Made by a program: the position numbers and the translations under genes
NCBI GenBank assembly: GCA_016756835.1
Contig: JAESPE010000021.1
Coordinates: 1 to 41,681, forward strand
DNA length: 41,681 bases
From: a gamma proteobacterium endosymbiont of Lamellibrachia anaximandri
GTDB lineage: Bacteria > Pseudomonadota > Gammaproteobacteria > Chromatiales > Chromatiaceae
Direction: 5' to 3'
Notes under the pieces: generated by a model
The model's input: only the letters and a program-made list of their open reading frames with translations
What the model was told of the DNA's origin: nothing
Database searches by the model: none
Shown here: positions 1 to 41,681 of the stretch, piece by piece
How the letters are laid out: each line of letters opens with the position of its first letter
Position numbering within the stretch: the stretch's first letter is position 1

Positions 1-412
1 TCTTGCCTACTTTGCTTCCCCTCTGGCGCAAGGCACGCCGGGTAAGCAGTGCGGCCTCGCGGCTACCGGGGACTACCAGCCTTCGCTTCGCTCTCCATGG
101 CTGGCAGCGATAGAAGGTAGTCGGCTTGCCTTTGGCATCCAGGTTCCAGCCTACAAATTTTCCTGCGCATTTGAAGGTGGCATCGGAATTACGCAGGAAT
201 TCGCTCTCCTTGATACCCAGTTGCTGGAGCATGCGGGGGAAACCCGTCACCGTCCCTTCGCCAACACCAATGGTAGGGATATTTGGCGACTCAATCAGGG
301 TCACCTTGACCTTGGACTCACCCTTGTTCAGCATCGTGGTCAGAAACAGGCCCATCAACCAACCTGCCGAACCGCCACCCACGATGGTGATATCATCGAT
401 CCTCTCGTTCAT
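1..412 (-). CDS. Flavin-dependent (tryptophan-type) halogenase, N-terminal part, cut by window edge and possibly disrupted
   Basis: The frame starts at an ATG at 412 and is open to base 1 (137 codons seen; the family has about 500). Residues 12-18 read GGGSAGW, the FAD-binding glycine motif. Residues 47-53 (TIGVGEG) and 80-89 (FKCAGKFVGW) follow the PrnA-type halogenase pattern, and K81 sits where the catalytic lysine (K79 of PrnA) is expected. The match fades after about residue 101 (near base 110). From there the translation (CQPWRAKRRLVVPGS...) is Arg-rich and unlike the FYHLFG-type continuation of the family, and the DNA carries a small inverted repeat (76-81/99-104). Either a repeat has inserted and the gene is broken, or this is a divergent member. 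It lies 56 bases downstream of the TauE/SafE gene on the same strand. Family call firm, integrity doubtful. Confidence 0.75.
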   Translation of the reverse strand, partial: MNERIDDITIVGGGSAGWLMGLFLTTMLNKGESKVKVTLIESPNIPTIGVGEGTVTGFPRMLQQLGIKESEFLRNSDATFKCAGKFVGWNLDAKGKPTTFYRCQPWRAKRRLVVPGSREAALLTRRALRQRGSKVGK

Positions 413-14076: not shown

Positions 14077-15192
14077 TTATTCACAATCGACGTATTCAAC
14101 CACTTCCATACCGAAACCGGAGAGGCCGTGGATACTCTTCGGCGCACTGAGCACACGCATCTTACGCACACCCAGATCAGAGAGAATCTGCGCGCCGACA
14201 CCGTAGGTGCGTAGCTCCTTGCTATTGTCGTGCTTACCGAACGACTCGCCTTCCGGCCTCTGCAGCTGCAGCTCCATCATACGCTGCACGATCTCCCGGG
14301 CGGTGTCGTGATTACGCAGCACCACGATCACGCCTTGCCCCGCTTTACTCACCTGTTTCATGGCATTTTCAAGTGGCCAACCACAATCACCACCGGTTGA
14401 ACTGAACAAATCACACAAGCTGTTCTGCATGTGAACGCGAACCAGTGTCGGCTTATCCGGTTTCGGATGCCCCATCACCAGCGCCAGATGCAGCTCGTTA
14501 TCCACCATATCCTGATAGGCAACCAAGCGGAAATTGCCGTGCTGGGTGGGAAATGCACATTCGCTGACCCGCTCCACTGTATGCTCATTTTTCACCCGAT
14601 ACTGGATCAGATCGGCGATGGTGCCGATTTTCAGATCGTGCTCTTGAGCAAACTTCTCAAGATCCGACCGGCGCGCCATGGTCCCGTCGTCGTTGAGAAT
14701 CTCCACGATGACGGAAGCGGCGCGGAAACCCGCCATGCGGGCCAAATCACACCCCGCTTCGGTATGACCGGCACGTACCAGCACACCACCAGGCTGCGCC
14801 ATCAGCGGAAAGATATGCCCTGGTTGCTCAATATCCTGAGGTTGTGCGTCCTCTGCCACAGCAGCCAAAATAGTGGTAGCCCGATCAGCGGCCGAGATAC
14901 CAGTGGTCACCCCTTCGGCGGCCTCAATAGAGACTGTGAAATTGGTCGCAGCCAGCTCATCGTCAGTGGGCACCATCAGGGGCAAGCGTAACTGGCTGCA
15001 GCGCTCTTTCGTGAGCGTAAGGCAGATCAGGCCGCGGCCGTAACGAGCCATGAAATTGACCGCATCCGGGGTCACAATCTCGGCAGCCATAATGAGATCG
15101 CCCTCGTTCTCACGATCCTCATCATCCATGATGACAACCATCTTCCCCTGTTTCAGGTCGGCAACGATTTCTTCTGTAGTATTAAGGGACAT
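14077..15192 (-). CDS. ribB: 3,4-dihydroxy-2-butanone 4-phosphate synthase fused to a degenerate GTP cyclohydrolase II domain (RibBX type)
   Basis: 371 residues from ATG 15192. Residues 1-205 are a complete RibB domain: [11 protein letters not shown] (23-33), a central segment with [12 protein letters not shown], and HTEAGCDL (143-150). Residues 206-371 have the GTP cyclohydrolase II fold but not its active site. The zinc cysteines of the usual C-x10-CDC pattern are reduced to C260 and C270 ([12 protein letters not shown]), and the QEGRGIG loop reads NHDTARE (294-300). It should therefore make the four-carbon riboflavin precursor but not open GTP; such RibBX hybrids are known in proteobacteria. 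Annotation as bifunctional RibBA would be misleading. It follows ribE by 89 bases. Confidence 0.93.
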
Positions 15193-24959: not shown

Positions 24960-26756
24960 TTACGCCTCTATCGCTTCAAGTGAAATGACACTCTTGGCCA
25001 TGCGTTTGGAGAAATAGTAGATGCGCTTCTGTTTTTCGATGATATCGACTTCAATGGTGTAAGCCGGAATACGGTTGGGCTCTTCGGCCACCAGCCGTTC
25101 CGCCTGATGGGCGGCCGCTGAGTCAGTCATTTTGGTGATCTCCTCTTTCATGGCTGTCACAACCTGTGCGGCTTCCTCACTATTCTGGGAAACTGCCTGT
25201 ACCGCTGCTTTGAAAGCCTTGGTAACCACTTCATGAAAACCCAAAAGAACCTCGCGGGTCGGTTCACTGATTGAAAATCCTGCATTTATCCGGTCAAAGC
25301 CCAAACCCACCAGATTGGTTTCAATCGTATCACCTATGTTCTCTAGATCGCTCACAGCTTCCATGAGCTTGAGAAACTCCTCGGTCTGCTGATCCGATAA
25401 TGACCGCTTACTGATACGTCCCATGTAGTCGATGATTTGCTCGTAGAGGATATCCACTTGGTCATCCAGGTCACGGACAGCGGACAATGACTCTTTATTG
25501 CCAGTGATGATGGCCGGCATAATGCTATCCAGCATCTCTTGTACGCGCTCTCCCATATGCAGCACTTCCAAACGAACCCGGCCTAAGGCAAGTGAAGGCG
25601 TTGTCAGCAACTCTTCATCAAGGTATTTGGCGCTGACCAGCAGATCCTCCTCCTCCAGCGTGCTGTCTGGAATCAACCACTCAACCAGACGGGCGATCTG
25701 GGTGGTAAAGCCGATAAAGATCAGTGTATTGGCAATATTAAAAATGGTATGAGCATTGGCGATCTGACGAGGCGTTTCCGCACCAAGACGATCCACACCG
25801 GAGAGTTCCGGATGAACCGGCGACAGCGCGGTGACCCAATTGGCGAGATGGTCTATAAACAGCACCCATATCAGTACGCCCGCAATATTGAACAGGACAT
25901 GCACTACGGCTGCACGGACTGCTTCTCTGGGTTTGCCAATGGAGGCCAGCATGGCTGTGATGCAGGTTCCGACATTCGCACCAAACGCCAGGGCGATACC
26001 TGCCGGAAGCGTTATAAACCCCTGGCTGGCCATGACGATAACAATACCGGTGGTAGCAGATGAGGACTGTATCAGCCCGGTAAAGGCCGCCGCCACCAGG
26101 ATACCGACCAGGGGATTTTCCATCTGAATCATCAGGTCAAGGAAAGGCTGATAGGTACGCAGTGGCTGCATGGCATTACTCATGACGCTCATGCCGAAAA
26201 ACACCAGCCCCAATCCCATGAGCATAGTGCCATACTGTTTTATTTTGTCCTGTTTGGAGATGAACAGCATGCTGAATCCAACGCCGACCATCAGCAATGC
26301 GGCCTTGGTCACTTTGAAGGCAACAATCTGAGCCGTGATCGTGGTGCCAATATTGGCGCCCATGATCACCCCGACAGATTGCGACATGGACATCAGCCCT
26401 GCGGTGATAAATCCAACTACCAGTACGGTGGTAACGGATGAGGATTGAATAATTGCAGTCACGAACGCGCCCGTCGTGGCACCCATGAAGCGATTGGTGG
26501 TCAACTTGGCCAGGATCAATTTCATGCGTTCGCCGGCGACGGCCTTGAGGGCCTCCGACATCTGCTCCATGCCAAACAGAAAGAGCGCCAGCCCACCGAA
26601 CAGCTGCATGCCCATGGTGCCCCATTTCATCTCTGATTCAGCGCCTGCGGCGGCGAATACCGGGTAGACCATGAATGCTGCTGCCAGACCTGCGAGCAAA
26701 ACCAGCGTCCCTCTTGTTAAATAAGCCTCAAACCAGAGTCTGCTTTTTGTATACAT
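24960..26756 (-). CDS. Na+/phosphate cotransporter (NptA/YjbB type) with C-terminal PhoU domain
   Basis: About 598 residues from ATG 26756, which has GAGGTG upstream; a GTG at 26765 lacks one. The two Na/Pi repeats carry the paired IIQSSSVTTVLVVGFI (about 104) and LIQSSSATTGIVIVMAS (about 234) motifs. About nine membrane helices are followed by a soluble PhoU-like helical domain (from about 390, with VSDLENIGDTIETNL). It probably moves phosphate with sodium, perhaps as an exporter; the PhoU tail suggests phosphate-linked control. The UspA gene is 12-21 bases upstream. Confidence 0.92.
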   Translation of the reverse strand: MYTKSRLWFEAYLTRGTLVLLAGLAAAFMVYPVFAAAGAESEMKWGTMGMQLFGGLALFLFGMEQMSEALKAVAGERMKLILAKLTTNRFMGATTGAFVTAIIQSSSVTTVLVVGFITAGLMSMSQSVGVIMGANIGTTITAQIVAFKVTKAALLMVGVGFSMLFISKQDKIKQYGTMLMGLGLVFFGMSVMSNAMQPLRTYQPFLDLMIQMENPLVGILVAAAFTGLIQSSSATTGIVIVMASQGFITLPAGIALAFGANVGTCITAMLASIGKPREAVRAAVVHVLFNIAGVLIWVLFIDHLANWVTALSPVHPELSGVDRLGAETPRQIANAHTIFNIANTLIFIGFTTQIARLVEWLIPDSTLEEEDLLVSAKYLDEELLTTPSLALGRVRLEVLHMGERVQEMLDSIMPAIITGNKESLSAVRDLDDQVDILYEQIIDYMGRISKRSLSDQQTEEFLKLMEAVSDLENIGDTIETNLVGLGFDRINAGFSISEPTREVLLGFHEVVTKAFKAAVQAVSQNSEEAAQVVTAMKEEITKMTDSAAAHQAERLVAEEPNRIPAYTIEVDIIEKQKRIYYFSKRMAKSVISLEAIEA

Positions 26757-26777
26757 GCTGTACACCTCGGTGATTTA

Positions 26778-29769: not shown

Positions 29770-31032
29770 CTACAACAGCCGTTCTACCCGTACCTTAATG
29801 ACCGAGCGCTCATCCGCCTCCAACACGCTCAGGCGATAACCCTGCTCTTCGATGGCGTCACCTGGAGAGGGGATATGGCGCAGGCGACTGATGATCAATC
29901 CCCCGATAGTATGTGCTTCCTCCACAGGAAAGTGTACATACAGGGTATCATTGACCTCGGAGATGGGCATTCTGCCGCTCATCAGGTGGCTATTTTCATT
30001 CTCATGTTCGATATAGGCCCGCTTCTTTGGATGATACTCATCAAAGTCATATCCCACATCGATCTCACCCACGACCTCTTCAAAAACATCTTCCATGGTG
30101 AGAATCCCCACCGCAGAGCCAAACTCATCAACCACCACCGCCATGTGATCTTCACGGGCCTGCAACTGGGGAAGCGCCCGGTCAATCGTCTGCTTTGGCG
30201 AAAGAAACAGCACCGGTTTCATATAGTCAGCGACAGACTTCTCCATGATGTCCGGGTCCATCAAATCCCATGAATTCAGGGTCAGGACTTTCTTGATATT
30301 GGTAATGTTACCCCGATAGACAGGCAAGCGGTTGAAACCGTATTTCATCACCAGGCGCGTCGTCTCCTTCATGGAACGGGCCTCATTCAAACCGACCACA
30401 TCAGCCAAAGGAATCATCGCCTCACCCACCGTGGTATCGCCAAAACGGATGATCCGTCGAATACGCTTGCGATCAATCGTCGATGGGTTGGCAGCAGAGT
30501 CCGATACATCCAACAGCACTCGCAGTTCCTCGCGGGTGATAAACATATTCTGCGGAATGCTCCCATTCCCCACAATACGGGTGATGAAACGTGCTATCCG
30601 ACTGAAGATAAAGATCACCGGATAGAAAAGATAAGAGAAAAAACGCAGGGCATAGATAAGCCGACCGGAAATCGTATCCGCCTTTTGCTGGAAGATACTC
30701 TTGGGGACAACTTCTCCCAGAATCAGCAGCACAGGGGTAAGCACGATAATTGATATCAGATCACCCACCGAGCCAAACAGATCGATAAAAATCAGCGCGC
30801 CCAGGGTGGATATGGTGACTGTAGCCAGATTGGTTCCCACCAGTGTGGTTCCCAAAATGACGTCTGGCGTGCGAAACAAATTAAGTACCAACGCAGCACC
30901 ACGATTCCCCATCTTTGCCTGATGCCGCAACTTGACTTTATCCGAATTGACCATGGCAATTTCGGAGCCGGAGAAAAACCCCTTCAGCAACAGAAAGGCG
31001 ATAATCAGAAAGAGTTCTACAGCCCAGTCCAT
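29770..31032 (-). CDS. CNNM/CorC-type membrane protein (DUF21-CBS-CorC_HlyC)
   Basis: 420 residues from ATG 31032, preceded by GGGAGA; a GTG at 31035 is the other choice. The N-terminal DUF21 domain has four hydrophobic segments (LIIAFLLLKGFFSGSEIAMV at the front). A CBS pair lies in the middle (TVGEAMIPLADV, MAVVVDEFGSAVGILTMEDV). The C-terminus is a CorC_HlyC domain. Members are linked to Mg2+/Co2+ efflux. Start and stop of the pair overlap (TGATG) with the paralogue upstream. Confidence 0.9.
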   Translation of the reverse strand: MDWAVELFLIIAFLLLKGFFSGSEIAMVNSDKVKLRHQAKMGNRGAALVLNLFRTPDVILGTTLVGTNLATVTISTLGALIFIDLFGSVGDLISIIVLTPVLLILGEVVPKSIFQQKADTISGRLIYALRFFSYLFYPVIFIFSRIARFITRIVGNGSIPQNMFITREELRVLLDVSDSAANPSTIDRKRIRRIIRFGDTTVGEAMIPLADVVGLNEARSMKETTRLVMKYGFNRLPVYRGNITNIKKVLTLNSWDLMDPDIMEKSVADYMKPVLFLSPKQTIDRALPQLQAREDHMAVVVDEFGSAVGILTMEDVFEEVVGEIDVGYDFDEYHPKKRAYIEHENENSHLMSGRMPISEVNDTLYVHFPVEEAHTIGGLIISRLRHIPSPGDAIEEQGYRLSVLEADERSVIKVRVERLL

Positions 31033-32531
31033 CACTTCTCTCCCAACGGCCGTGTGTCGTCAGACACCTTATCGGATGCCATTTCATCAGATGCCTTCCC
31101 ATCAGATATCGTCTCGGGCGAAGCCTTTTGATCGGTACCTTCACCATCCGAATCCGGTTCAAGCTCAGTCTCAGTACCGACTGCAGTATCGTCACCAGCC
31201 GTATCAATCTGCTGCTTATTTGATGAGGATATTTTCTGAACCTGGAGTTCACTGATCCTCAACCCGCTTCGTTGCTTGACGATGAAGCGAAATCCCTCGT
31301 AATTTATCTGCTCACCCGGTTCGGGCAGCCTGTCAAATAAGCGGAAGGCGACACCACCGATAGTGGACATCACCGCATCTTCAATAGCAAAATTGGTGAG
31401 ATTATAAAAATCTGTCAGACGCATATCGCCGGGTACGACATAGCTGTTCTCATCATCCTCCTTGTAATACTCCTGTCCCTCCATCTTTCCGGAGATTTCA
31501 CCGAAAATGAAGGTCAGCACATCCTTCATGGTGACAATACCCAGCACCTCACCATATTCACCCAGAATGATGGCAACACGAGTATTGTGCATCTGGAAAT
31601 AATCGAACATCTCATCCACCTTCTTGGTGGGTGGCACATAATGCGCCGGCTTCAGGATCATATCCAGAGTGATCATAGAGAGATCATCCACGCCTCGGAC
31701 AAGTTTCAATATATCTTCGGAATGGATGAAACCGATTACATTGTCCCAGTGCCCCTGGTAGACGGGTATGCGGGGATGGCGATAACGGCGGAACTGCTCG
31801 ATCAATTCAGGAACAGGTAGGTCCGCATCAAGAAAGCATATGCGGGGGCCAGGCGTCATGATGCGCGAAATATCCGTTTCCGATGCCTCCAATACGTTAT
31901 CGATCAGCACCCTTTCTGTCGCATCGATAATGCCGGTCTGCTCGCCCTCCTCCAAAAGGGTTCTGAGTTCATCGGGCTGCAGGATATTTTCCCTGTCAAC
32001 GGCATCCCCCACCACCAGGGTGGTGATCCAGTCAGCGACCACACGCACCGCCTCACGCAACGGCGTTATGAAAACCATCCAGCGCGGCAGAATCCGTGCG
32101 GTAATACGGGTGGTGAACTTAATGGGATAGCTGACCGCGATGGTCTTGGGGGTCACCTCACCGATCAACAGCAACAGGGGCACCATAATCACTATGTTCA
32201 TCCAGCCCACATCCTGCTCGCTGTAAAGCAGCAGCAGAATCGCCGTCATATTCACGGCCGAGGCGATGTTGACCAGTTCATTGCCACATAGAATAGAGAT
32301 GATCAAACGGCGCGGCTCATCCAGCATCGCGTGAATACTCTCAGAATCACTGTGGCGCGATTGCCGGAGCTTTTGCAAATCTATGCGACTGAGAGAAAAC
32401 AACGCTGTTTCTGATCCTGAAAACACAGCGGATGCGAGCAATAGGATCACCTGAAACAGGATGCGAACAAACAGCTCCCCATTTTCGATATTAAAAGTAA
32501 GCGCATCAAAAAATGCTTTTATCTCATCCAT
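31032..32531 (-). CDS. CNNM/CorC-type membrane protein with long acidic tail
   Basis: 499 residues; a paralogue of the next gene with the same DUF21-CBS-CorC_HlyC order (SAVFSGSETALFSLSR, TDISRIMTPGPRICFL, VAIILGEYGEVLGIVTMKDV). The last 70 residues are extra and acidic, with repeats of SDGKASDE / ASDKVSDD type. Likely function is divalent-cation (Mg2+/Co2+) efflux at the inner membrane. The tail has no counterpart in the neighbour and may be unstructured. Confidence 0.9.
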   Translation of the reverse strand: MDEIKAFFDALTFNIENGELFVRILFQVILLLASAVFSGSETALFSLSRIDLQKLRQSRHSDSESIHAMLDEPRRLIISILCGNELVNIASAVNMTAILLLLYSEQDVGWMNIVIMVPLLLLIGEVTPKTIAVSYPIKFTTRITARILPRWMVFITPLREAVRVVADWITTLVVGDAVDRENILQPDELRTLLEEGEQTGIIDATERVLIDNVLEASETDISRIMTPGPRICFLDADLPVPELIEQFRRYRHPRIPVYQGHWDNVIGFIHSEDILKLVRGVDDLSMITLDMILKPAHYVPPTKKVDEMFDYFQMHNTRVAIILGEYGEVLGIVTMKDVLTFIFGEISGKMEGQEYYKEDDENSYVVPGDMRLTDFYNLTNFAIEDAVMSTIGGVAFRLFDRLPEPGEQINYEGFRFIVKQRSGLRISELQVQKISSSNKQQIDTAGDDTAVGTETELEPDSDGEGTDQKASPETISDGKASDEMASDKVSDDTRPLGEK

Positions 32532-32673
32532 TTTTTGTTTTCATTGTTGCTTTGCCAATCGGAGCAATCTAACCCAATTCTTGTCTTGCCGCGTTGATCT
32601 GAGGACAACAAATGCCATTTAGTATAAAAAATCCTGGCCAAGTCGGTCCCTGCGGTACCAGGTAGTAAACTTG

Positions 32674-33867
32674 TCAGGTCATTGACAACAGCGCTGCCAC
32701 CAGCAGTTCTGCATCGTAATAGGGTGCGCTACGCTTGCTGACCAGCGGCACCTGCACAACCTGCACCCCCAGCTCCTTCATCAAACCATTGGACAAAGAA
32801 GATGGGTAAGCCCCTTTGCGGTCGTCCATCAGCACGTAATTCAGCGATCGGTTATCGTCAGAAGCATCAGGCACATCGGCGCGCAACTGTGCCAGCAGAG
32901 CCTGCACCATACGATCAGAGGTCATGCCGATCTGTTCAGGATCCTGCCCCAAGTTGGGAATATACACCTTGGGACAGTCAGTTTCGACAATGGCTCTCCC
33001 CACACCACGGGGCAGCAGGTTGGCCAACAGGCTGGTGTAGAAACTCCCGGGCGGGTAGCAGATCAGCTCTGACCGCTGGATCAGCTTGCGATTCTTCTTG
33101 CGCAGGATAGCCTCGGCAGGCACTGCCTTATCCAGCCGACTGGACAGAAACAACTTTTTTATGGGTGAGGCCAGCGGCGTCACTTCCTTTCCGGTCAATC
33201 GGTGCTGACCGATAACTTGGCTGCCATCCTCCAGTTTTGCGCCCAGATGAAGATGATCGTTGACCACCGCGCGCACCGTACCGCGCACCTCCACCAACTT
33301 GGAAAAGAGAAAAATAATCGGGTCCAGATGTTGATGGTTATTCAGATAGCCGCCGGCCAGGATCAGATTGCCGATACTGGCGCCACGCAGGTCAAAACGC
33401 TTGGGCATGGCCTCACGAAAATAACCGAGCTGGTGGCGGATCAGGCGACGCATGGGATTGGAGATAGGTTCCACCATCCGATCCCGGCCCAGGATCATAT
33501 TGTCCAACTGACGCAACAGATCGCGATTCTTCACCTCCTTCGCAAAACGATGGGCGAACAGGCTATATACCTCAGGATTACCGGTCACGCTGTCATCGGC
33601 CAGGGCGATCAAGCGACTTCGCAGATCACCGATGGATGGCATATCAAAGGCTTTGCGCAGTGTTGCCGAACTACCGCCGGAATCAAACGGAGTGACCAAG
33701 TGGGTTGAATTATGAGTATATTGCTTCAATACTTGGCAGACCCCGGTCAGGGCCGAGCCACCGCTGAAAAACAGTAAACGGGGACCAAGTTCCGGTGCTC
33801 GGCTATAGCGGTTTATGCGCACCAGATCGGGAATCTTCGCCGAGCGCGTAACTTTAACAGTCGCCAT
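32674..33867 (-). CDS. CofD/YvcK-like protein of the GAK type
   Basis: 397 residues. FFSGGSALTGV (34-43), VTPFDSGGSS (58-67) and the following SIGDLRSRLIALADD (78-92) and ASIGNLILAGGYL mark the CofD/YvcK fold. CofD transfers a phospholactyl-type group to a deazaflavin; YvcK relatives bind UDP-sugars. The length, the N-terminal RINRYSRAPELGP and the gene neighbours fit what I recall as the GAK-system CofD-like family, whose reaction is unknown. It is divergent from the eight-gene plus-strand cluster, with only 91 bases between. Confidence 0.85.
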   Translation of the reverse strand: MATVKVTRSAKIPDLVRINRYSRAPELGPRLLFFSGGSALTGVCQVLKQYTHNSTHLVTPFDSGGSSATLRKAFDMPSIGDLRSRLIALADDSVTGNPEVYSLFAHRFAKEVKNRDLLRQLDNMILGRDRMVEPISNPMRRLIRHQLGYFREAMPKRFDLRGASIGNLILAGGYLNNHQHLDPIIFLFSKLVEVRGTVRAVVNDHLHLGAKLEDGSQVIGQHRLTGKEVTPLASPIKKLFLSSRLDKAVPAEAILRKKNRKLIQRSELICYPPGSFYTSLLANLLPRGVGRAIVETDCPKVYIPNLGQDPEQIGMTSDRMVQALLAQLRADVPDASDDNRSLNYVLMDDRKGAYPSSLSNGLMKELGVQVVQVPLVSKRSAPYYDAELLVAALLSMT

Positions 33868-33958
33868 ATCAAATCATACTTCCGATTGTGATTCTTTCTT
33901 CTTGAAACTAGGCTAATATGAAGAGAATTACAAACTGGAAATATTCGCAGTAAACACC
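33868..33958. promoter_or_regulatory. Divergent promoter region of the GAK-like locus
   Basis: The only gap between the CofD-like gene and the eight-gene operon, AT-rich relative to the flanks. TAATAT at about 33915-33920 is a possible -10 for the plus strand; no good -35 is visible at the right spacing. No operator-like palindrome was seen. Ribosome sites on both sides are weak. Confidence 0.4.
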
Positions 33959-34429
33959 ATGGGAAATCTGATCCCCGGCATTCGCAACGCGGCCCGCGCG
34001 CTGATCGTGCGCGATGGACATCTGTTGTTGCTGCGCAAAGAAGATGATGAACTCGGAGAGCGCTATGCTCTGCCTGGCGGAGCCCAGGAAGCCGGAGAGA
34101 CCTTACCGGTAGCCCTTAACCGGGAATGCCTTGAGGAGATCAACACCGAGGTTGTGATACGTGACCTGCTGCATGTGGCCGACTGGTTCAAACCACGCGA
34201 CACCATTCCACCCACCACCCGCCAGCGGGTGGAATTTCTGTTCGACTGCACCGTACCCGAAAACTACCAACCACGAAACGGCCACCGGCCCGACAAGCAT
34301 CAAGTGGACGTTGTGTGGAAGAAACTGGGTGAACTACAAGATATCCAACTCCTGCCAAAGGCACTGACCAGCTACCTGATGGATTACCCAAAGAGCGAAA
34401 AAACCATCTACCTGGGAACGCTGGACTGA
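33959..34429 (+). CDS. Nudix hydrolase, first gene of the GAK-like operon
   Basis: 156 residues. The Nudix box is complete at 41-63: GAQEAGE, then RECLEEI with R55-E56 and E59-E60 for metal. No zinc ribbon. A long insert (WFKPRDTIPPTTRQRVEFLF) follows the box. It should hydrolyse a diphosphate linkage; the substrate is unknown. Eleven bases separate it from the next gene. Confidence 0.88.
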   Translation: MGNLIPGIRNAARALIVRDGHLLLLRKEDDELGERYALPGGAQEAGETLPVALNRECLEEINTEVVIRDLLHVADWFKPRDTIPPTTRQRVEFLFDCTVPENYQPRNGHRPDKHQVDVVWKKLGELQDIQLLPKALTSYLMDYPKSEKTIYLGTLD

Positions 34430-34440
34430 GAACTCACTGC

Positions 34441-36081
34441 ATGCACCTTTCCAAAAACATCCGAGACAACCTGCATTTTCTGATCGCAGAAGTCGGCTCT
34501 CAGGTTGGTAACCTACATGCCTACATAGATACCTCTTCGCCTCCCCAGGCACAGCGCATTGTCGATCGCAGCGGCTATGCCTATAACCTCAAGATGCGTA
34601 TCCACAACAGCTGTTTGGGACAGATCGTACGCCACAAAGGCAACGATACCCGAACCCAAACCCTGCGTGCCGCTGAGTCCATTGCCACCGATCTGGAACG
34701 TATCGCCGAATTGTGCCGGAACTGCATTCATCAGATGGCCTATCTGAAGAAGAAAAGCTGCCTGCGACCAGCCGATTATGCACGACTGCTCGACCAGGTC
34801 AGCGTCGGTCTGCAGATGGTGCAACCCGCCATCCAGGACAAAGATACCGGCTTGGCCCTGAAACTCGGGCAGATCGAGCATCACCTGGACCGGGACTACC
34901 GCAAACTGCTGAAACACCACACAAAACTGCTGAAAAAAAAGCAACACACCGAAGATTTGATTGCCGCCCTGTTTGTGGCCCACAGCATTGAGCAGATGGG
35001 TGACGCTCTGCTCAATATCAGTGAGGCCATCATCTCCGCCAATCTGGGCCAGCCTATCAACATCGACCGCTACTACCATCTGATGGAATCCATCGGCCGC
35101 CTGGAGGCCGAAAAAAACCTCGACAGTCTGACCATCAAACCAGTAGCCGAAACCCGCTCCGGAAGCGCTATTTCGGGCATCAGCAATCCAAAGAGAAAGA
35201 ACGATGGTTATGTGGCCATTTTCAAGGATGGTAAAAAGCGCAAACTGAAAGAAGAACGGGAAGGGGTAGAGAGCTGGCACGAGATCTACCCCGGACTGGC
35301 GCCCAAGATCCTCTCCTACCACAAGCGCGGCCAATCCGCCTCGCTGCTGATTGAGCATCTGGCCGGCATGACCTTTGAACATGTCCTGCTGCGTGAATCC
35401 CAGCCACTGCTCAACAAAACCATGGGGCATCTGTGCGCCACCCTGGAATCGGTATGGCGTGAAACCCGCAGCAAGAAAAAAATCAGCGCCAACTACATGG
35501 ACCAACTGGCCAAGCGCCTGCCGGATGTCTACGAGATCCACCCCGAGTTCCGCCAGAGTGACAGCCAGGTGTGCGGCCTGAAAATACCCAGCTTCGAATC
35601 CCTGCTCAAGCGCTCCCGCGCCTATGAGACCAGGCTCAAGGCACCGTTCTCGGTGTATATCCACGGCGATTTCAACGTCGACAATATCATTTACGACCCA
35701 CTGGCCAAGCGTATCAACTTCATCGACCTGCACCGCTCCCGCTACATGGACTATGTGCAGGACGTGTCGGTATTCATGGTCTCCAATTACCGCCTGCAGG
35801 TACTGGATGCACCCTTGCGCCGTCGCATCATGCAAACGGTGCAGAGCTTTTACCGCTTCGCACGCAAGTATGCAAAAAAAGCCGGCGACGAGACCTTCGA
35901 GCTGCGCCTGGCCCTGGGACTGGCCCGTTCCTTCGCCACCTCTACCCGTTTCATCCTCGACAAGTCCCTGGCCCGAGCCATGATGCTGCGTGCCCGCTAC
36001 CTGTTGGAGCGCGTATTGGAGACAGATCCGAAGCAGGCCGCTAATTTCCAACTTCCTATAAAGGAGCTGTTCATTGCTTAA
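34441..36081 (+). CDS. PhoU-like domain fused to an aminoglycoside-phosphotransferase-type kinase
   Basis: 546 residues. Residues 1-215 form a helical PhoU-like half, with ATDLERIAELCRNCIHQM and AHSIEQMGDALLNISEAI matching the E/D-x3-D helix repeats. A linker follows, then an APH-type kinase (about 250-530). Its catalytic loop is HGDFNVDN (H408, D410, N415) and the Mg-binding Asp is in FIDLHRS (D429). The lysine of the N-lobe is not obvious. It should phosphorylate a small molecule or a sugar-like acceptor. The stop overlaps the ATP-grasp start by eight bases. I do not know a described enzyme with this architecture. Confidence 0.85.
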   Translation: MHLSKNIRDNLHFLIAEVGSQVGNLHAYIDTSSPPQAQRIVDRSGYAYNLKMRIHNSCLGQIVRHKGNDTRTQTLRAAESIATDLERIAELCRNCIHQMAYLKKKSCLRPADYARLLDQVSVGLQMVQPAIQDKDTGLALKLGQIEHHLDRDYRKLLKHHTKLLKKKQHTEDLIAALFVAHSIEQMGDALLNISEAIISANLGQPINIDRYYHLMESIGRLEAEKNLDSLTIKPVAETRSGSAISGISNPKRKNDGYVAIFKDGKKRKLKEEREGVESWHEIYPGLAPKILSYHKRGQSASLLIEHLAGMTFEHVLLRESQPLLNKTMGHLCATLESVWRETRSKKKISANYMDQLAKRLPDVYEIHPEFRQSDSQVCGLKIPSFESLLKRSRAYETRLKAPFSVYIHGDFNVDNIIYDPLAKRINFIDLHRSRYMDYVQDVSVFMVSNYRLQVLDAPLRRRIMQTVQSFYRFARKYAKKAGDETFELRLALGLARSFATSTRFILDKSLARAMMLRARYLLERVLETDPKQAANFQLPIKELFIA

Positions 36082-36961
36082 AATTGGCATCATCGGCATC
36101 CCCGGCAAGTGGTCCACAGAGACCCTGGCCGATGCCGTAGAATCCCGCACCGGCTACCGCCGGATCATCGACATGGGCGAGGTGGAACTGGACCTCGCCG
36201 GCAAACGGCTGCTGCACGGCGACACGGATCTGTGCAGCCTCGACGGCCTGATCATTAAAAAGATCAGCGCCAGCTACAGTCCCAACACCCTGGATCGCCT
36301 GGAACTGTTACGGGTGGCGGAACACGCCGGGGTACGTATCTTCAGCCGGCCCCTGAACATCCTGCGCCTGGTCGACCGCCTGAGCTGCACGGTCACCCTG
36401 CGCAACGCGGATATCCCCATGCCCGAGACCCGAGTCACCGAGAACGTGGCGGCAGCCATGACCACGGTGCGCGAATTCGGCAGCGCGGTGTTCAAACCCC
36501 TCTACTCCACCAAGGCGCGCGGCATGTGCGTGATCGACGCAGCGCTGTCCGACAGCGACATGCAGGCCCAGATCCTAGCCTTCCAGGCAGAGAACCCCAT
36601 GATGTACATCCAGAAAAAAGTGGCCCTGCCGGGCAGGGATCTGGGTATGGTATTTCTGGCTGGCAAATACCTGGGCACCTATGCACGGGTCTCCCAAAGC
36701 GACACCTGGAACACCACCATCCACAGCGGCGGGCGCTACGAGAATCACCTTCCACCTGACGACATTATCGAACTGGCACGCCGCGCACAGGCACCGTTCG
36801 AGATGGATTTCACCACCGTCGATGTGGCTGAAACCGATGCTGGCCCCATCGTCTTCGAGGTCTCTGCCTTTGGCGGCTTCCGCGGCGCCAAGGAAGGAAT
36901 CGGCATTGATGCCGCCGGGCTCTACAGCGAACACGTCATACGGGAAATCTCTACACAATGA
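36074..36961 (+). CDS. RimK-like ATP-grasp ligase (GAK type)
   Basis: 295 residues. The start is TTG 36074 with AAAGGAG eight bases upstream. The ATP-grasp central part shows VFKPLYSTKARGM (K141 as ATP contact), IQKKVALPGRDLG and, at the end, VDVAETDAGPIVFEVSAFGGF with D250 and E262 in metal-binding positions; the usual Asn of E-V-N is S264. Such enzymes join a carboxylate to an amine via an acyl-phosphate. It matches what I recall as the GAK-system ATP-grasp family. Overlaps the next gene by four bases (ATGA). Confidence 0.88.
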   Translation: MLKIGIIGIPGKWSTETLADAVESRTGYRRIIDMGEVELDLAGKRLLHGDTDLCSLDGLIIKKISASYSPNTLDRLELLRVAEHAGVRIFSRPLNILRLVDRLSCTVTLRNADIPMPETRVTENVAAAMTTVREFGSAVFKPLYSTKARGMCVIDAALSDSDMQAQILAFQAENPMMYIQKKVALPGRDLGMVFLAGKYLGTYARVSQSDTWNTTIHSGGRYENHLPPDDIIELARRAQAPFEMDFTTVDVAETDAGPIVFEVSAFGGFRGAKEGIGIDAAGLYSEHVIREISTQ

Positions 36962-38058
36962 ACAACACTCTGACCATGGAAACCGCCGCCTCTGCCCTGC
37001 AGGATGGCGCCAGTCTCGTCGATGAAGCACTCTATCTCGCCCTTGGAGAGTGTTCGTTGCGGCTGCGTTCCAACTCCGCCGAGCTGCTGGCAAAGCTCAC
37101 GGTCTATTTCTCCCATGTGGCAACCGGGCCATCTGATAAGGTGGATCTTGAGGTTATCGCCATCGAACGGGATATCTCGGACCTGGGCGTAGCGTTCACC
37201 GACTGGAAGCGGGAACCGGGCAAGACAGGCCGCAAAGACGCCTATCTGGATCTGCCTGACGCCCGCTTGGTGTTGAAGGTACGCACCGGTATGGTGTTCC
37301 TGCAGAGCAGCGGCCCGTGTATCGCAGCCGGCCCCTGCCTGCAATACGACAACCAGGTGATCAATTTCATCAATGCCCAGTACATGAACTGGTTGCAGCA
37401 TAGAGACTGGCTGATCTGTCACGCCTCGGGGCTGGTATACAAGGGCGGCTGCCTGGGCATCGCAGGCTTCTCCGGCGGCGGCAAGTCCACTCTGATGCTG
37501 CACCTGATGGATCACGACGAGGTCTCCTACCTGACCAATGACCGCTTGTTCATCCGCAGTCAGAATGGCGGCACAGGTGCAGTGGGGATCCCCAAGCTGC
37601 CAAGGGTCAACCCCGGCACTATCGTGCACAATCCACGCCTGCACAGCCTGATATCCAGCGAGCAGCGTGAGTCCTTCCTGGCGCTGCCCCAAGACGAACT
37701 CTGGCACCTGGAAGACAAATATGACGTGCTAGTGGAACAGGTCTACGGACACGACCGCATCACCCCCGAGGCACCCTTATCCGCTTTTCTGATACTCAAC
37801 TGGCGGCGCGATTCCAACGAGGCAACCACGGTGGAACGCGTGGACCTGGACCAGCGCCGGGATCTGCTGACCGGCACTATCATGAAATCCCCTGGGCCCT
37901 TTTACCAGTACCCCGACGGCAGCTTCTTCAGCGATACTACCGAACTGGATCAGGCACCCTACCCCAAGGTGCTGAAAGACGTGCCCGTTTATGAGGCGCG
38001 AGGCGGCATCAACTTCGAGACCCTTACTGATATCTGTCTGCAACAGTTGATGGGCTGA
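36958..38058 (+). CDS. HPr kinase-related kinase (HprK-related kinase B type)
   Basis: 366 residues. A P-loop GFSGGGKST (170-178, K176) follows a YKGGCLGIA strand, as in the HprK C-terminal domain. TNDRLFI and GIPKLPRVNPGTI come later. The N-terminal 150 residues have no HprK counterpart. No HPr gene is in the window, so the target is unlikely to be HPr. The overlap with the ATP-grasp gene and the amphi-Trp protein downstream fit the GAK set. Confidence 0.87.
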   Translation: MNNTLTMETAASALQDGASLVDEALYLALGECSLRLRSNSAELLAKLTVYFSHVATGPSDKVDLEVIAIERDISDLGVAFTDWKREPGKTGRKDAYLDLPDARLVLKVRTGMVFLQSSGPCIAAGPCLQYDNQVINFINAQYMNWLQHRDWLICHASGLVYKGGCLGIAGFSGGGKSTLMLHLMDHDEVSYLTNDRLFIRSQNGGTGAVGIPKLPRVNPGTIVHNPRLHSLISSEQRESFLALPQDELWHLEDKYDVLVEQVYGHDRITPEAPLSAFLILNWRRDSNEATTVERVDLDQRRDLLTGTIMKSPGPFYQYPDGSFFSDTTELDQAPYPKVLKDVPVYEARGGINFETLTDICLQQLMG

Positions 38059-38083
38059 AAACGCATACGAGACATAACTGACC

Positions 38084-39061
38084 ATGACGACTGAACTGCT
38101 GATCCTGCGACACGGTAAATCAGACTGGAGCCTGGGCGAGGCCGATTTCTCTCGACCCATCACGGACCGGGGCAAGCGCGGTGCCCAACGCATGGGCGTA
38201 TGGCTCTGGCAGCAGGATCTGTTGCCGGACCACATCATCTGTTCACCGGCAGAGCGGGCTCTGGTCACCGCTCAAAAGACCTGCAAGGCCATGGGCATGG
38301 ATCCCAAGACTATCCATAAGGACCAGCGGATCTACGAGGCAGGCTTCAGTGACCTGTTGAACGTACTGCATGAATGCCCTGCCCAGGCCAGACGGGTCAT
38401 GCTGGTAGGTCATAACCCCGGATTGGAAATGCTGCTGCTGCACCTCAGCAACAAACCTATCGATAACCCGGCAGACGGCAAGCTGTTGCCCACCGCCACT
38501 CTGGCCCGTCTGACCATGCCGGATGACTGGAGCCAGCTACAAAAAGGCTGCGCCGAAGTCATCTCCATCACCCGTCCCGGCAGCCTGCAGGAGAAGTTCC
38601 CCTACCCTGCACCCCACGGCGATGAATTTCGCGACCGACCTGCCTACTACTATAGCCAGTCCTCGGTGATTCCCTACCGCATGCATAAAGGTAAACCGCA
38701 GATACTGGTCATCCTGTCCAGCAAGAAAAAACACTTCGTAGTACCCAAAGGCATCAAAGAGCCTGGCCTCTCACCACGTGAATCCGCAGCCCAAGAGGCC
38801 TGGGAGGAAGCGGGTGTGGAGGGTGAAGTTGGCGACACCGCCTTGGGCAGCTACCGTTATCAGAAATGGGGTGCGACCTGCACGGTGCAGGTCTACCCCA
38901 TGCGCGTAACCCGTGAGATCCCGGAGCATGAGTGGGAAGAGAGCCACCGGGGCCGCCAGTGGGTAACACCGAAACAGGCGACCAAGCGCCTCAAGCAAGC
39001 AGAGCTGGCGCCACTGGTAAAGGCACTGGCCAAGCAGCTAGGAGCCTTGTCTGAGACATGA
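38084..39061 (+). CDS. SixA-type histidine phosphatase fused to a Nudix domain
   Basis: 325 residues. Residues 1-160 are a SixA-like phosphatase with R9-H10-G11 in ILRHGKSDW and the second catalytic His H110 in VGHNPGLE. Residues 185-325 are a Nudix domain. Its box at 223-245 is GIKEPGLSPRESAAQEAWEE: the first Glu of G-x5-E is Leu and the Arg of RE is Gln, leaving QE-A-W-EE, a variant seen in DIPP-like Nudix enzymes that act on polyphosphorylated substrates. Two phosphate-removing activities in one chain. Overlaps the next gene by four bases. Confidence 0.87.
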   Translation: MTTELLILRHGKSDWSLGEADFSRPITDRGKRGAQRMGVWLWQQDLLPDHIICSPAERALVTAQKTCKAMGMDPKTIHKDQRIYEAGFSDLLNVLHECPAQARRVMLVGHNPGLEMLLLHLSNKPIDNPADGKLLPTATLARLTMPDDWSQLQKGCAEVISITRPGSLQEKFPYPAPHGDEFRDRPAYYYSQSSVIPYRMHKGKPQILVILSSKKKHFVVPKGIKEPGLSPRESAAQEAWEEAGVEGEVGDTALGSYRYQKWGATCTVQVYPMRVTREIPEHEWEESHRGRQWVTPKQATKRLKQAELAPLVKALAKQLGALSET

Positions 39062-39747
39062 GGCGAATCGCCGCACTCATCCGGCACGGTGATTATCACC
39101 AGCGGTCGGGAGCCCCCAGTGCCCATCAACCCTATCCGCTGAACGCGGCTGGCAGGGAACACGCCCACCAAGCAGCCAAGGAGGTGCAGGATACGCTGCT
39201 GCAACACAACTGGCAGCTGGCACCTGTCATCGACAGCTCCCGAATGCTGCGCGGTTGGCAGACTGCACAGATTATCGCTGAGACGCTGGTCACCCCAGAA
39301 GCAACAGTGGATTCCTTCGACGCCTTGGCTGAGCGAGGCATGGGTTGCCTGGCCAACCTAAGCGTGGTCGAGATCGAAAAAATCCTGCAGCAGGATCCAC
39401 GTTATCCAGAGGCGCCATCGGACTGGAAATCCAACAGCCACTACTGCCTGCCCCTACAGGGAGCCGAATCGCTCATGCAGGCCGGAGAACGGGTGGCAAA
39501 TCACCTGCGTGAACGCATTGCTGGACTGTCAGCGAACGTTAGCGTCGACCAGCTCAAACTATTCGTCGGCCACGGTGCTGCGTTCCGCCACGCCGCCCAT
39601 CATCTGGGCGTGCTGGCCTTCGAACAGATCGCTGCACTTAGCATGTACCATGGTCGACCAGTGTTTCTGGAGAACCTGCCGGATGGAAGCTGGCAGCAGG
39701 TAGCCGGTGATTGGAAGGTACGCGGCGGCGATGCCTATACCGACTAA
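39058..39747 (+). CDS. Histidine phosphatase (PGAM/SixA superfamily)
   Basis: 229 residues. The RHG motif is at 9-11 (LIRHGDYH), and the second His is in FVGHGAAFRHAAH. A 30-residue insertion (GMGCLANLSVVEIEK to SDWKSNSHYC) follows the first domain half. It is a single-domain protein and differs clearly from the SixA domain of the preceding gene. ATG overlaps that gene's stop. Confidence 0.87.
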   Translation: MRRIAALIRHGDYHQRSGAPSAHQPYPLNAAGREHAHQAAKEVQDTLLQHNWQLAPVIDSSRMLRGWQTAQIIAETLVTPEATVDSFDALAERGMGCLANLSVVEIEKILQQDPRYPEAPSDWKSNSHYCLPLQGAESLMQAGERVANHLRERIAGLSANVSVDQLKLFVGHGAAFRHAAHHLGVLAFEQIAALSMYHGRPVFLENLPDGSWQQVAGDWKVRGGDAYTD

Positions 39748-39771
39748 AAACAACAATAACTAACTCCGGAC

Positions 39772-41169
39772 ATGAAACAGCGCACAACGACCAAACACAT
39801 ACCCGATTACCAGGGCCAGCGCTGGCTGCAACCAAAGTTACCAGCCCAGGGTGAATCCTGGCTGCTCGGCAAACAGCACTCCCTCGCGAAAGAAACCCCC
39901 AAACAAGCCGCTCGCATCGAGGTGCTGGGCCAACTGATCGAGCAGGCGCCATGGAAATGGCCAAAACGGCCACTATATTTTATCTGCGATCTGCATGCCG
40001 ATACCGATGCATTCCACGCATCACTGGTGGCATCCGGGCTGATTAAGAAAACCGGCACACGAGACAAGGACTACAAACTCACCAAAGCAGCTCGTAAGGG
40101 CCGCATCCTGATCGGTGGTGACTGTTTCGACAAAGGTCCCAGCGTGCTACGCCTGCTGCGTAGCATCCATAGGCTGAAGAAACGGGGAGCCAGGATCTCG
40201 GTACTGGCCGGCAACCACGATATCCGGACAATGATCGGCATGCGCGCAATGGATGGAAGCAACGACCCGCGTATCGAACACTTTTTCGTGCGCATGGGTC
40301 CCAAGGCCATACCGCTGCTTAAGGAGATCGCAGAAGAGTACCTCAAGGGCTCGAACCGGCTACGCGGGATACCCAGAACACGGGAATGCAGGCAACGACT
40401 GTTCCCCTCAAAAAAATGGTTCGATGATTTCCCCATGCGGGCCGAATGGATGATGCCGGAGCCTGGCATCACCAAAGAACTGCACCGCCTGAAAGAGAAG
40501 GTGCAGCAGTTCACTCAGGGGTGTGAGGAGATCGGCCTGTCACTGCGCACTGCCTATGCAGCGACACTCAAGTTCCAGGAAATTTTTCTGCATCCCAAGG
40601 GCGAATTTACCTGGTTCTACCGCAAACTGCGCCTGGCCCACCGCGAAGGTGCTTTCCTCTTCATCCATGCAGGGTTGAATGACCGTATCTGCCGCCTGAT
40701 CGCCAATCACGGTATCGGTTACCTGAACCGTCAGTTCTGCCGAGAGGCCTGGAGCGATCCCTTTGCCTTCTACTACGGCTCGCTGGCGAACACCCTGCGT
40801 ACCAAATACAGGCCGGTGGATATGCCGTTCACGCCCTACGGCGTGGATCTGATGCACCGCAAGGGTATCCACGCCATCGTACACGGTCACCGCAACCTGC
40901 TGCATGGCCAGCGGATTATGCTACGCAAGGGTATGATCAACTTTGAGTGCGACACGTCCCTGGATCGCAACACGCGCAGCAAGGAAGGCCTGACAGGACA
41001 CGGTGCCTCAGTGACCATCTTCCACCCGGGGGGCCAGGTACTGGGCATCAGCAACGACTACCCCAACATCAAAGTCTTCGAGCCGCAGGCCTTGGTGAAA
41101 AAAAGACGCAAGGCACGCAAAGCTGCGGGCAAGCGTCACAAGTCTATACGAGGAAATCGAACCGCATGA
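39772..41169 (+). CDS. Calcineurin-like metallophosphoesterase
   Basis: 465 residues. The dinuclear metal motifs are intact: D73-x-H75 (FICDLHAD), GGDCFDKG (D117, D120), GNHD (147-150), FIHAGL near 298 and VHGHRN near 370. A region of about 150 residues between GNHD and FIHAGL is unusually long. The C-terminal 30 residues are Lys/Arg-rich (KKRRKARKAAGKRHKS), possibly binding an anionic partner. It should cleave phosphate esters. Its stop overlaps the next start (ATGA). Confidence 0.87.
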   Translation: MKQRTTTKHIPDYQGQRWLQPKLPAQGESWLLGKQHSLAKETPKQAARIEVLGQLIEQAPWKWPKRPLYFICDLHADTDAFHASLVASGLIKKTGTRDKDYKLTKAARKGRILIGGDCFDKGPSVLRLLRSIHRLKKRGARISVLAGNHDIRTMIGMRAMDGSNDPRIEHFFVRMGPKAIPLLKEIAEEYLKGSNRLRGIPRTRECRQRLFPSKKWFDDFPMRAEWMMPEPGITKELHRLKEKVQQFTQGCEEIGLSLRTAYAATLKFQEIFLHPKGEFTWFYRKLRLAHREGAFLFIHAGLNDRICRLIANHGIGYLNRQFCREAWSDPFAFYYGSLANTLRTKYRPVDMPFTPYGVDLMHRKGIHAIVHGHRNLLHGQRIMLRKGMINFECDTSLDRNTRSKEGLTGHGASVTIFHPGGQVLGISNDYPNIKVFEPQALVKKRRKARKAAGKRHKSIRGNRTA

Positions 41170-41444
41170 GAACCGATGGAAAAAGCTTCAGGCACGAATC
41201 ACTGCAGGACACAAAAGCCATCCGTGACCTGCTCAAGTCCATTAGCCAGGGTCTCAAAGAGGGGCACCTCAGCTTCAGCGATGCAGATGGCGAGATCGTG
41301 ATGGAACCGGAGGGTCTGTTGCAGTTCAAACTGACCGCAGCCAAGCGACAAGGTCGGCACCGGATCAACATACGTATCAGTTGGCAGGTGGATGAATCAT
41401 CGGAGAAGAAGGAAAAATCCCTGACCGTACGTTCACGCCGTTAA
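41166..41444 (+). CDS. Amphi-Trp domain protein
   Basis: 92 residues from ATG 41166. The pattern fits the amphi-Trp family (recalled NCBIfam TIGR04354): FRHESLQDTKAIRDLLKSI, then GLKEGHLSFSDADGEIVMEP, LLQFKLTAA and a strand with a single Trp (INIRISWQV, about residue 79). The family is small, of unknown role, and found with the ATP-grasp and HprK-like kinase in GAK loci. The short Lys-rich C-terminus is not part of the core. Last gene of the operon; no clear terminator follows. Confidence 0.83.
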   Translation: MRTDGKSFRHESLQDTKAIRDLLKSISQGLKEGHLSFSDADGEIVMEPEGLLQFKLTAAKRQGRHRINIRISWQVDESSEKKEKSLTVRSRR

Positions 41445-41481
41445 GCAGTAGCATCCAGGAATATACATTTTAGTGAAACCA

Positions 41482-41538
41482 CGTCATCCCGGCGCAAGCT
41501 GGGATCCAGAGAATTCAACGGCTTGCTGGATTCCGGCG
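41482..41538. repeat. REP-like palindromic intergenic repeat
   Basis: ATCCCGGC-GCAA-GCTGGGAT (41486-41505) forms a hairpin with one mismatch, and GGATCCAG reappears inverted as CTGGATTCC (41526-41534). This style (GTCATCCCGGCGCAAGC) is common between genes in proteobacteria. It starts about 37 bases after the operon's last stop. Confidence 0.6.
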
Positions 41539-41580
41539 CAACTTCTCAATAGTTCCCTGCATGCCCTTGCACGGAATCGG

Positions 41581-41681
41581 CTAAGGAGCCTCTGAATAAG
41601 TCCGGGCCGTTCAGATTGTGAGATGAAATGCGCTGATTTGAGGCGGAAATCGCACGTAATAGCAGGCTATTGCGAAGATTT
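41581..41681. mobile_element. Probable left end of an IS5-type insertion sequence, cut by window edge
   Basis: GGAGCCTCTGAATAAG at 41585-41600 resembles the IS5 terminal repeat (recalled as GGAAGGTGCGAATAAG). It is preceded by CTAA, which fits the YTAR target of that family. The remaining 80 bases have no gene start and would be the non-coding lead into a transposase. The other end lies outside the window. Confidence 0.5.

Follow-up and report, generated by a model that had tools for sequence, protein, structure and literature searches.

A PhoU–APH kinase fusion in the GAK system of Pseudomonadota, with predicted PhoB control in some lineages

The stretch of DNA analysed here (41,681 nucleotides, hereafter the window), from a gamma proteobacterium endosymbiont of Lamellibrachia anaximandri, encodes a protein that almost certainly joins a PhoU-like helical module to an APH-type kinase in a single chain, and comparison across genomes makes us highly confident that this fusion is a core, apparently obligatory member of the GAK system in Pseudomonadota. 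The explanation that we prefer for the whole, in which we place middling confidence, is that of a phosphate-starvation-linked GAK kinase with a PhoU docking or regulatory module. The GAK system is the NCBIfam set TIGR04354–TIGR04358, which includes an ATP-grasp enzyme, an amphi-Trp protein and a HprK-like kinase and is uncharacterised (NCBIfam annotation). A search of the open-access literature found no papers on the GAK system and none on PhoU–kinase fusions, and no characterised enzyme of this layout, of which the first-pass annotation of the sequence had also known none, was found in the literature or databases searched. The domains and the GAK name in NCBIfam are known; what is new is their undescribed, apparently obligatory combination and the proposed regulatory input. 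The GAK system thereby gains an apparently obligatory kinase without an earlier name and a testable condition of its use, phosphate starvation through PhoB, and conserved hypothetical genes of marine and symbiotic Proteobacteria become experimentally approachable.

Table 1. Features of the fusion gene and its surroundings in the window. Fractions of 56 refer to loci with enough downstream DNA.
Feature	Position	Strand	Evidence
PhoU–APH fusion gene	34441–36081	+	Intact ORF, 546 aa, ATG start
PhoU-fold half, residues 1–212, two three-helix bundles	34441–35076	+	Pfam PhoU, AlphaFold, 4q25 match
Helical linker, residues 213–230	35077–35130	+	Helix 208–225; 0 invariant positions in 55 sequences
APH-type kinase half, residues 231–546	35131–36078	+	Pfam APH/EcKL above cut-off; MTR kinase structural match
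Nucleotide-binding hairpin AETRSGSAISG, residues 236–246	35146–35178	+	A236, S240, G241 invariant; strands 231–237/243–248
Beta3 lysine K262 to alphaC glutamate E272	35224–35256	+	Both invariant
Catalytic loop HGDFNVDN, residues 408–415	35662–35685	+	H408, D410, N415 invariant, 55 sequences
Metal-binding FIDLH, residues 427–431	35719–35733	+	D429 invariant
GAK system CofD-like protein, divergent	32674–33867	-	TIGR04357 543 bits, cut-off 340; 5/13 GAK genomes
Divergent promoter region, 91 bp	33868–33958	.	No clear PHO box, best score 9.7 of 14
NUDIX hydrolase, first operon gene	33959–34429	+	Pfam NUDIX 6.5e-13; upstream in 52/65 loci with enough flank
GAK system ATP-grasp enzyme, 8-bp overlap with fusion gene	36074–36961	+	TIGR04356 450 bits, cut-off 300
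HprK-related kinase B	36958–38058	+	TIGR04355 351 bits, cut-off 200; 55/56 loci
SixA-like histidine phosphatase fused to NUDIX	38084–39061	+	Pfam His_Phos_1 and NUDIX; downstream in 28/56 loci
Histidine phosphatase family protein	39058–39747	+	Pfam 1.1e-15; 54/56 loci
Calcineurin-like metallophosphoesterase	39772–41169	+	Pfam 2.4e-4, 22.0 bits against cut-off 21.5; 54/56 loci
Amphi-Trp domain protein	41166–41444	+	TIGR04354 62 bits, cut-off 31; 55/56 loci

The first-pass annotation had read roughly the first 215 residues as PhoU-like and the remainder as an APH kinase, and both assignments held when sequence profiles and predicted structures were compared. The N-terminal part matches Pfam PhoU at 3e-14 (53.6 bits, cut-off 23.5), ending at about residue 212, and residues ~287–452 match Pfam APH at 2.3e-8 (34.5 bits, cut-off 23.2); among 55 aligned full-length fusion relatives the PhoU match was found in 53/55 and the APH match in 55/55. 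An AlphaFold model built from these 55 relatives had a mean pLDDT of 87.6 and a pTM of 0.64, the latter leaving the relative placement of the two halves uncertain. Its PhoU half consists of helices 5–31, 44–64 and 69–100 followed by 110–132, 136–164 and 170–202, and aligns with Pseudomonas aeruginosa PhoU (4q25) over 203 residues (Z 25.5, rmsd 1.9 Å), so the non-PhoU helical bundle that would have counted against the annotation was not what the prediction returned. In the kinase half the N-lobe contains a beta hairpin, beta3 and alphaC and is followed by a helical C-lobe; this half aligns with 5-methylthioribose (MTR) kinase 2pun over 303 residues (Z 21.0, rmsd 4.5), and its structural matches to APH-fold kinases lie at Z ~21. 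A sequence-profile search of the PDB, which is independent of the model, returned five PhoU structures together with APH(3')-Ia. The pairwise distances measured on one half track those measured on the other (correlation 0.82; largest value among 1000 permutations, 0.22), which fits a single old fusion, although common ancestry would by itself also produce a correlation.

Conservation was scored on the 55 full-length fusion sequences, which extend down to 46% identity. Both motifs on which the kinase had originally been proposed, HGDFNVDN and FIDLH, are present, and K262, E272, H408, G409, D410, F411, N412, D414, N415 and D429 are invariant, so that the HxDxxxxN loop and the IDxx metal aspartate of the APH superfamily are found in every sequence. 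The ATP-binding lysine, whose absence would have spoken against a kinase, is accounted for by K262, which sits in beta3. Invariant positions number 61/316 in the kinase half and 11/212 in the PhoU half. Judged by these residues, the kinase half is very probably catalytically active. The fusion thus shares the fold and all catalytic motifs of the APH/choline kinase/MTR kinase superfamily (PF01636), but adds the PhoU extension and reaches the cut-off of no subfamily of known substrate. Some copies, plasmid ones among them, carry the RefSeq name ‘aminoglycoside phosphotransferase family protein’, and Foldseek gives its best E-values against APH(3')-Ia; even so, a role as an aminoglycoside resistance enzyme is hardly credible given that the gene always lies in a GAK operon. 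APH(3') identity was rejected on this constant context and on a score of 31.6 bits against an equivalog cut-off of 205, and the copies so called are probably misnamed.

In the window the fusion gene lies beside genes for the GAK ATP-grasp enzyme, HprK-related kinase B, amphi-Trp protein and CofD-like protein, all above their curated cut-offs, the first three being those by which GAK membership was judged. The XXXCH protein (TIGR04358) was over cut-off in 0/13 GAK genomes and is apparently not essential there, so the assignment of the cluster to GAK stands. No NCBIfam model names the PhoU–APH fusion, and in RefSeq the genes beside the plasmid copies are labelled ‘GAK system’, whereas the fusion is called simply ‘phosphotransferase’. 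No Rfam elements were found in window positions 32000–41681. Next to the cluster stand two adjacent CNNM/CBS/CorC-HlyC transporter-like genes (29770–32531, - strand), and genes of this kind also flank the GAK cluster in loci L018, L022 and L053.

The search for the same fusion in other genomes, suggested at the outset, turned up 121 relatives, of which 80 were kept, among gamma-, alpha- and zetaproteobacteria. Among 398 Pseudomonadota genomes, the 13 with the GAK ATP-grasp enzyme over cut-off were the same 13 that encode a full-length fusion, and none of the other 385 had a full-length fusion at 1e-20; these counts span ten genera, all within Pseudomonadota, and represent related genomes rather than independent events. 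In a fourteenth genome, which lacked the fusion, a fragment of the ATP-grasp enzyme scoring below cut-off lay close to the end of a contig. The ATP-grasp gene follows immediately 3' of the fusion in 79/79 loci, mostly at -8 to +25 bp, and is present in all 56 loci with enough downstream DNA, alongside the other neighbours at the frequencies given in Table 1. All five plasmids with the GAK ATP-grasp gene (5/5) also carry the fusion, and on an alphaproteobacterial plasmid the gene order is the same as in the window. In one genus (g114), 36/48 genomes encode the fusion, and a single genome (G104) was positive among 48 searched from its class. No virus-borne copies were found among IMG/VR contigs.

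The first-pass annotation had further suggested that the PhoU part could tie the kinase to phosphate supply, and PHO boxes predicted upstream of the operon lend such a link independent support in several lineages. A PHO box consists of two 7-nt direct repeats (CTGTCAT in E. coli) 4 nt apart (PMC4415409). Using the fixed E. coli consensus at a threshold of at least 12/14, boxes were found in 4/75 operon upstream regions against 2/1063 controls, for which the remaining upstream regions of these loci were used (p 2.4e-4); two of the four hits belong to a single genus. A more permissive scoring of the half-sites, the weights of which were picked after the first hits were known and fixed before the second set, gave 6/75 operon upstreams against 4/1012 controls, at a spacing of 4 only. 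In the second set of 62 further loci, some of them near-identical to loci of the first set and about half (30) from genus g114, 26 had a box at the PHO spacing of 4, compared with 0, 3, 1, 1, 0 and 7 loci at spacings of 2, 3, 5, 6, 7 and 15 respectively, the seven at spacing 15 being the echo expected of three tandem repeats. The 30 aligned g114 upstream regions diverge except for TGTCACATAACTGTCAT, followed by TATAG at a fixed distance, i.e. a predicted PHO box plus -10 element. When loci were collapsed at 70% protein identity, 10/56 clusters had a box in at least half of their members, against 0–2 of 56 at other spacings, and 46/56 lacked a convincing PHO box; among random 300-bp stretches the box score was reached by 2/504. 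From these predicted boxes, regulation of the GAK operon by PhoB in part of its range appears very likely. No convincing box was seen in the divergent promoter of the window or in the GAK operon upstreams of the window's nearest relatives, so the phosphate claim covers some lineages and not the symbiont from which the window comes. Two g114 genomes have unlinked CofD-like genes, and no PHO box was found upstream of these.

Also consistent with a phosphate link, a gene for a Na+/Pi cotransporter with a PhoU domain at its C-terminus lies about 8 kb from the GAK cluster in the window (24960–26765, - strand) and at a similar distance in the window's closest relatives; in loci L020, L022, L026 and L230 such a gene is found a few kb or less from the cluster. 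Elsewhere in the window, a PHO-box-like match of 13 of 14 at position 855 (- strand) falls inside a TauE-like transporter ORF and is probably due to chance.

Whether the PhoU half itself could relay phosphate status is a separate matter. PhoU has been described as binding metal and as being built from two bundles of three helices (PMC6232261). The fusion has this double bundle in common with the PhoU family (TIGR02135, PF01895), both in the model and in the 4q25 alignment, but differs in carrying a kinase, in lacking most metal-site acids and in lying outside any pst operon, and it scores 54.7 bits on the PhoU equivalog TIGR02135, short of the cut-off of 130.25. The E/DXXXD residues, which we take from the Thermotoga maritima structure to be the metal ligands of PhoU, are largely lost or variable across the 55 fusions. 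In an alignment of these with 15 canonical PhoUs from GAK genomes, the canonical proteins are acidic at position 44 in 15/15 (D in 14/15), have E86 and D90 in 15/15, E184 in 14/15 and D188 in 13/15, and carry D or E at position 55 in 14/15, whilst the fusions carry H or Q at position 55, E, G, R or N at 90, E, R or Q at 184 and mostly D or E at 188, and most of them have S or A at 44. Acidic residues persist at 86, 150 and 188 in many fusion members, so some metal binding could survive. The PhoU half has acquired invariant residues specific to the fusion (N10, F13, L14, E17, G45, Y46, L50, E195 and S199), and reads as a fold that was retained with a repurposed surface.

All 13 GAK genomes (13/13) encode a separate true PhoU above the equivalog cut-off, which together with the loss of most metal-site acids makes a metal-dependent PhoU relay unlikely. 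A PhoU half that senses phosphate, or a phosphate/metal complex, in the canonical manner and gates the kinase would suit the true PhoU fold, the phosphate-linked promoters predicted in some lineages and the Na+/Pi cotransporter genes near the cluster in several genomes; we nonetheless regard it as quite improbable, since the canonical PhoUs of the same genomes keep the acids that the fusion has largely lost, a separate PhoU is always at hand and the conserved neighbours were not seen to include Pst/PhoR genes. The suggested tie to phosphate supply therefore survives at the level of the predicted promoters and not as a canonical PhoU relay, and on balance we favour a non-canonical docking or regulatory module. 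Divergent copies in two small genomes (1.7–1.9 Mb; L222 and L223) have open frames of 533–542 aa, and their profile match takes in the whole kinase and part of the PhoU half only; the PhoU half may diverge faster there.

In the mechanism that we propose, phosphate starvation would switch on the GAK operon through PhoB in several gammaproteobacterial lineages, and the kinase half would carry out an ATP-dependent phosphorylation of a hydroxyl, the acceptor most probably being a small metabolite. The fusion would work with the ATP-grasp ligase, whose gene comes next and usually overlaps or abuts that of the fusion, and this ligase would ligate onto the kinase product or a partner. The operon's HprK-like kinase and phosphoesterases may work on these phosphorylated products or on linked ones. 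As a repurposed docking, oligomerisation or regulatory module, the PhoU half would dock a partner or gate the kinase.

As to the substrate, we lean towards a small molecule, on which most APH-fold kinases act. Phosphorylation of a protein, for example the operon's amphi-Trp protein in the way that HprK phosphorylates HPr/Crh, seems unlikely but is a fair rival because amphi-Trp is nearly universal in these loci, sits with a HprK-like kinase and has an invariant H10 and S12. The amphi-Trp proteins of GAK operons (that of the window and L009–L088) share F8, H10, S12, G29, G33 and W73, with H10 and S12 falling in an N-terminal segment predicted to be without secondary structure, and the structural matches of the kinase half include LxmK, the APH-fold kinase of the lexapeptide system (LxmKY), an enzyme that presumably acts on peptides. 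Against a protein substrate, HprK_B would be the more natural kinase for such a target, and the predicted amphi-Trp model, a single helix with four strands, resembled no solved structure significantly; an HPr-like fold was considered and set aside, HPr not being among the matches listed, which is no proof of its absence. Counted in favour of a protein substrate is the Bacillus subtilis operon yvcI-yvcJ-glmR(yvcK)-yvcL-crh-yvcN, in which a YvcK/CofD-like protein is encoded with Crh (PMC6171935). The likeness to GAK lies in these two components and is an analogy that implies no homology between the systems; the operon has no APH kinase, PhoU or ATP-grasp. Crh is a target of HprK, and yvcI is a Nudix gene.

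The next best family of the ATP-grasp protein after GAK is the tetrahydromethanopterin:glutamate ligase MptN (6e-40) and a CofD-like gene is adjacent in the window, from which one might envisage a glutamylated cofactor-like molecule made on an F420/methanopterin-like route by the kinase, a CofD-like transferase and an MptN/RimK-like glutamate ligase. This we find doubtful, since the CofD-like protein scores nearer to YvcK (TIGR01826, 131 bits) and is absent from 8/13 GAK genomes, and the number of phosphoesterases would go unexplained. In eukaryotes, the level of inositol pyrophosphates as a phosphate-homeostasis signal is set by an ATP-grasp kinase, a histidine acid phosphatase and Nudix pyrophosphatases (PMC11836120). 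By analogy, the GAK operon might make and erase a soluble phosphate-status messenger, a multiply phosphorylated or pyrophosphorylated small molecule that would be built by a PhoU-gated APH kinase with the ATP-grasp enzyme and degraded by the histidine phosphatase, Nudix and metallophosphoesterase proteins, a proposal that we consider very unlikely.

The fusion gene is intact in the window and broken in three ways in close tubeworm-symbiont relatives: by a 1-base gap in L012 and L093 (L012 10483–10498), in L040 and L103 by an insertion of 277 bp where the kinase half begins (L040 10720–10996), and by an internal TAA counted within the fusion match in G005. Locus L091 is also among the assemblies with a frameshifted, interrupted or stop-bearing fusion gene, and in L012 the SixA-NUDIX gene is split (14425–14921). 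Where the fusion is broken the neighbouring GAK genes are mostly intact. The interruptions mean either that the fusion is dispensable in these symbionts or that the assemblies are wrong, and together with the SixA-NUDIX split they suggest relaxed selection or assembly errors. The L040 insertion ends in sequence present in at least 40 copies in the genome of the window. The first ~110 bp of the window (1–110) match, by translation, this short repeat, of which that genome holds at least 40 identical 100-bp copies, mostly at contig ends.
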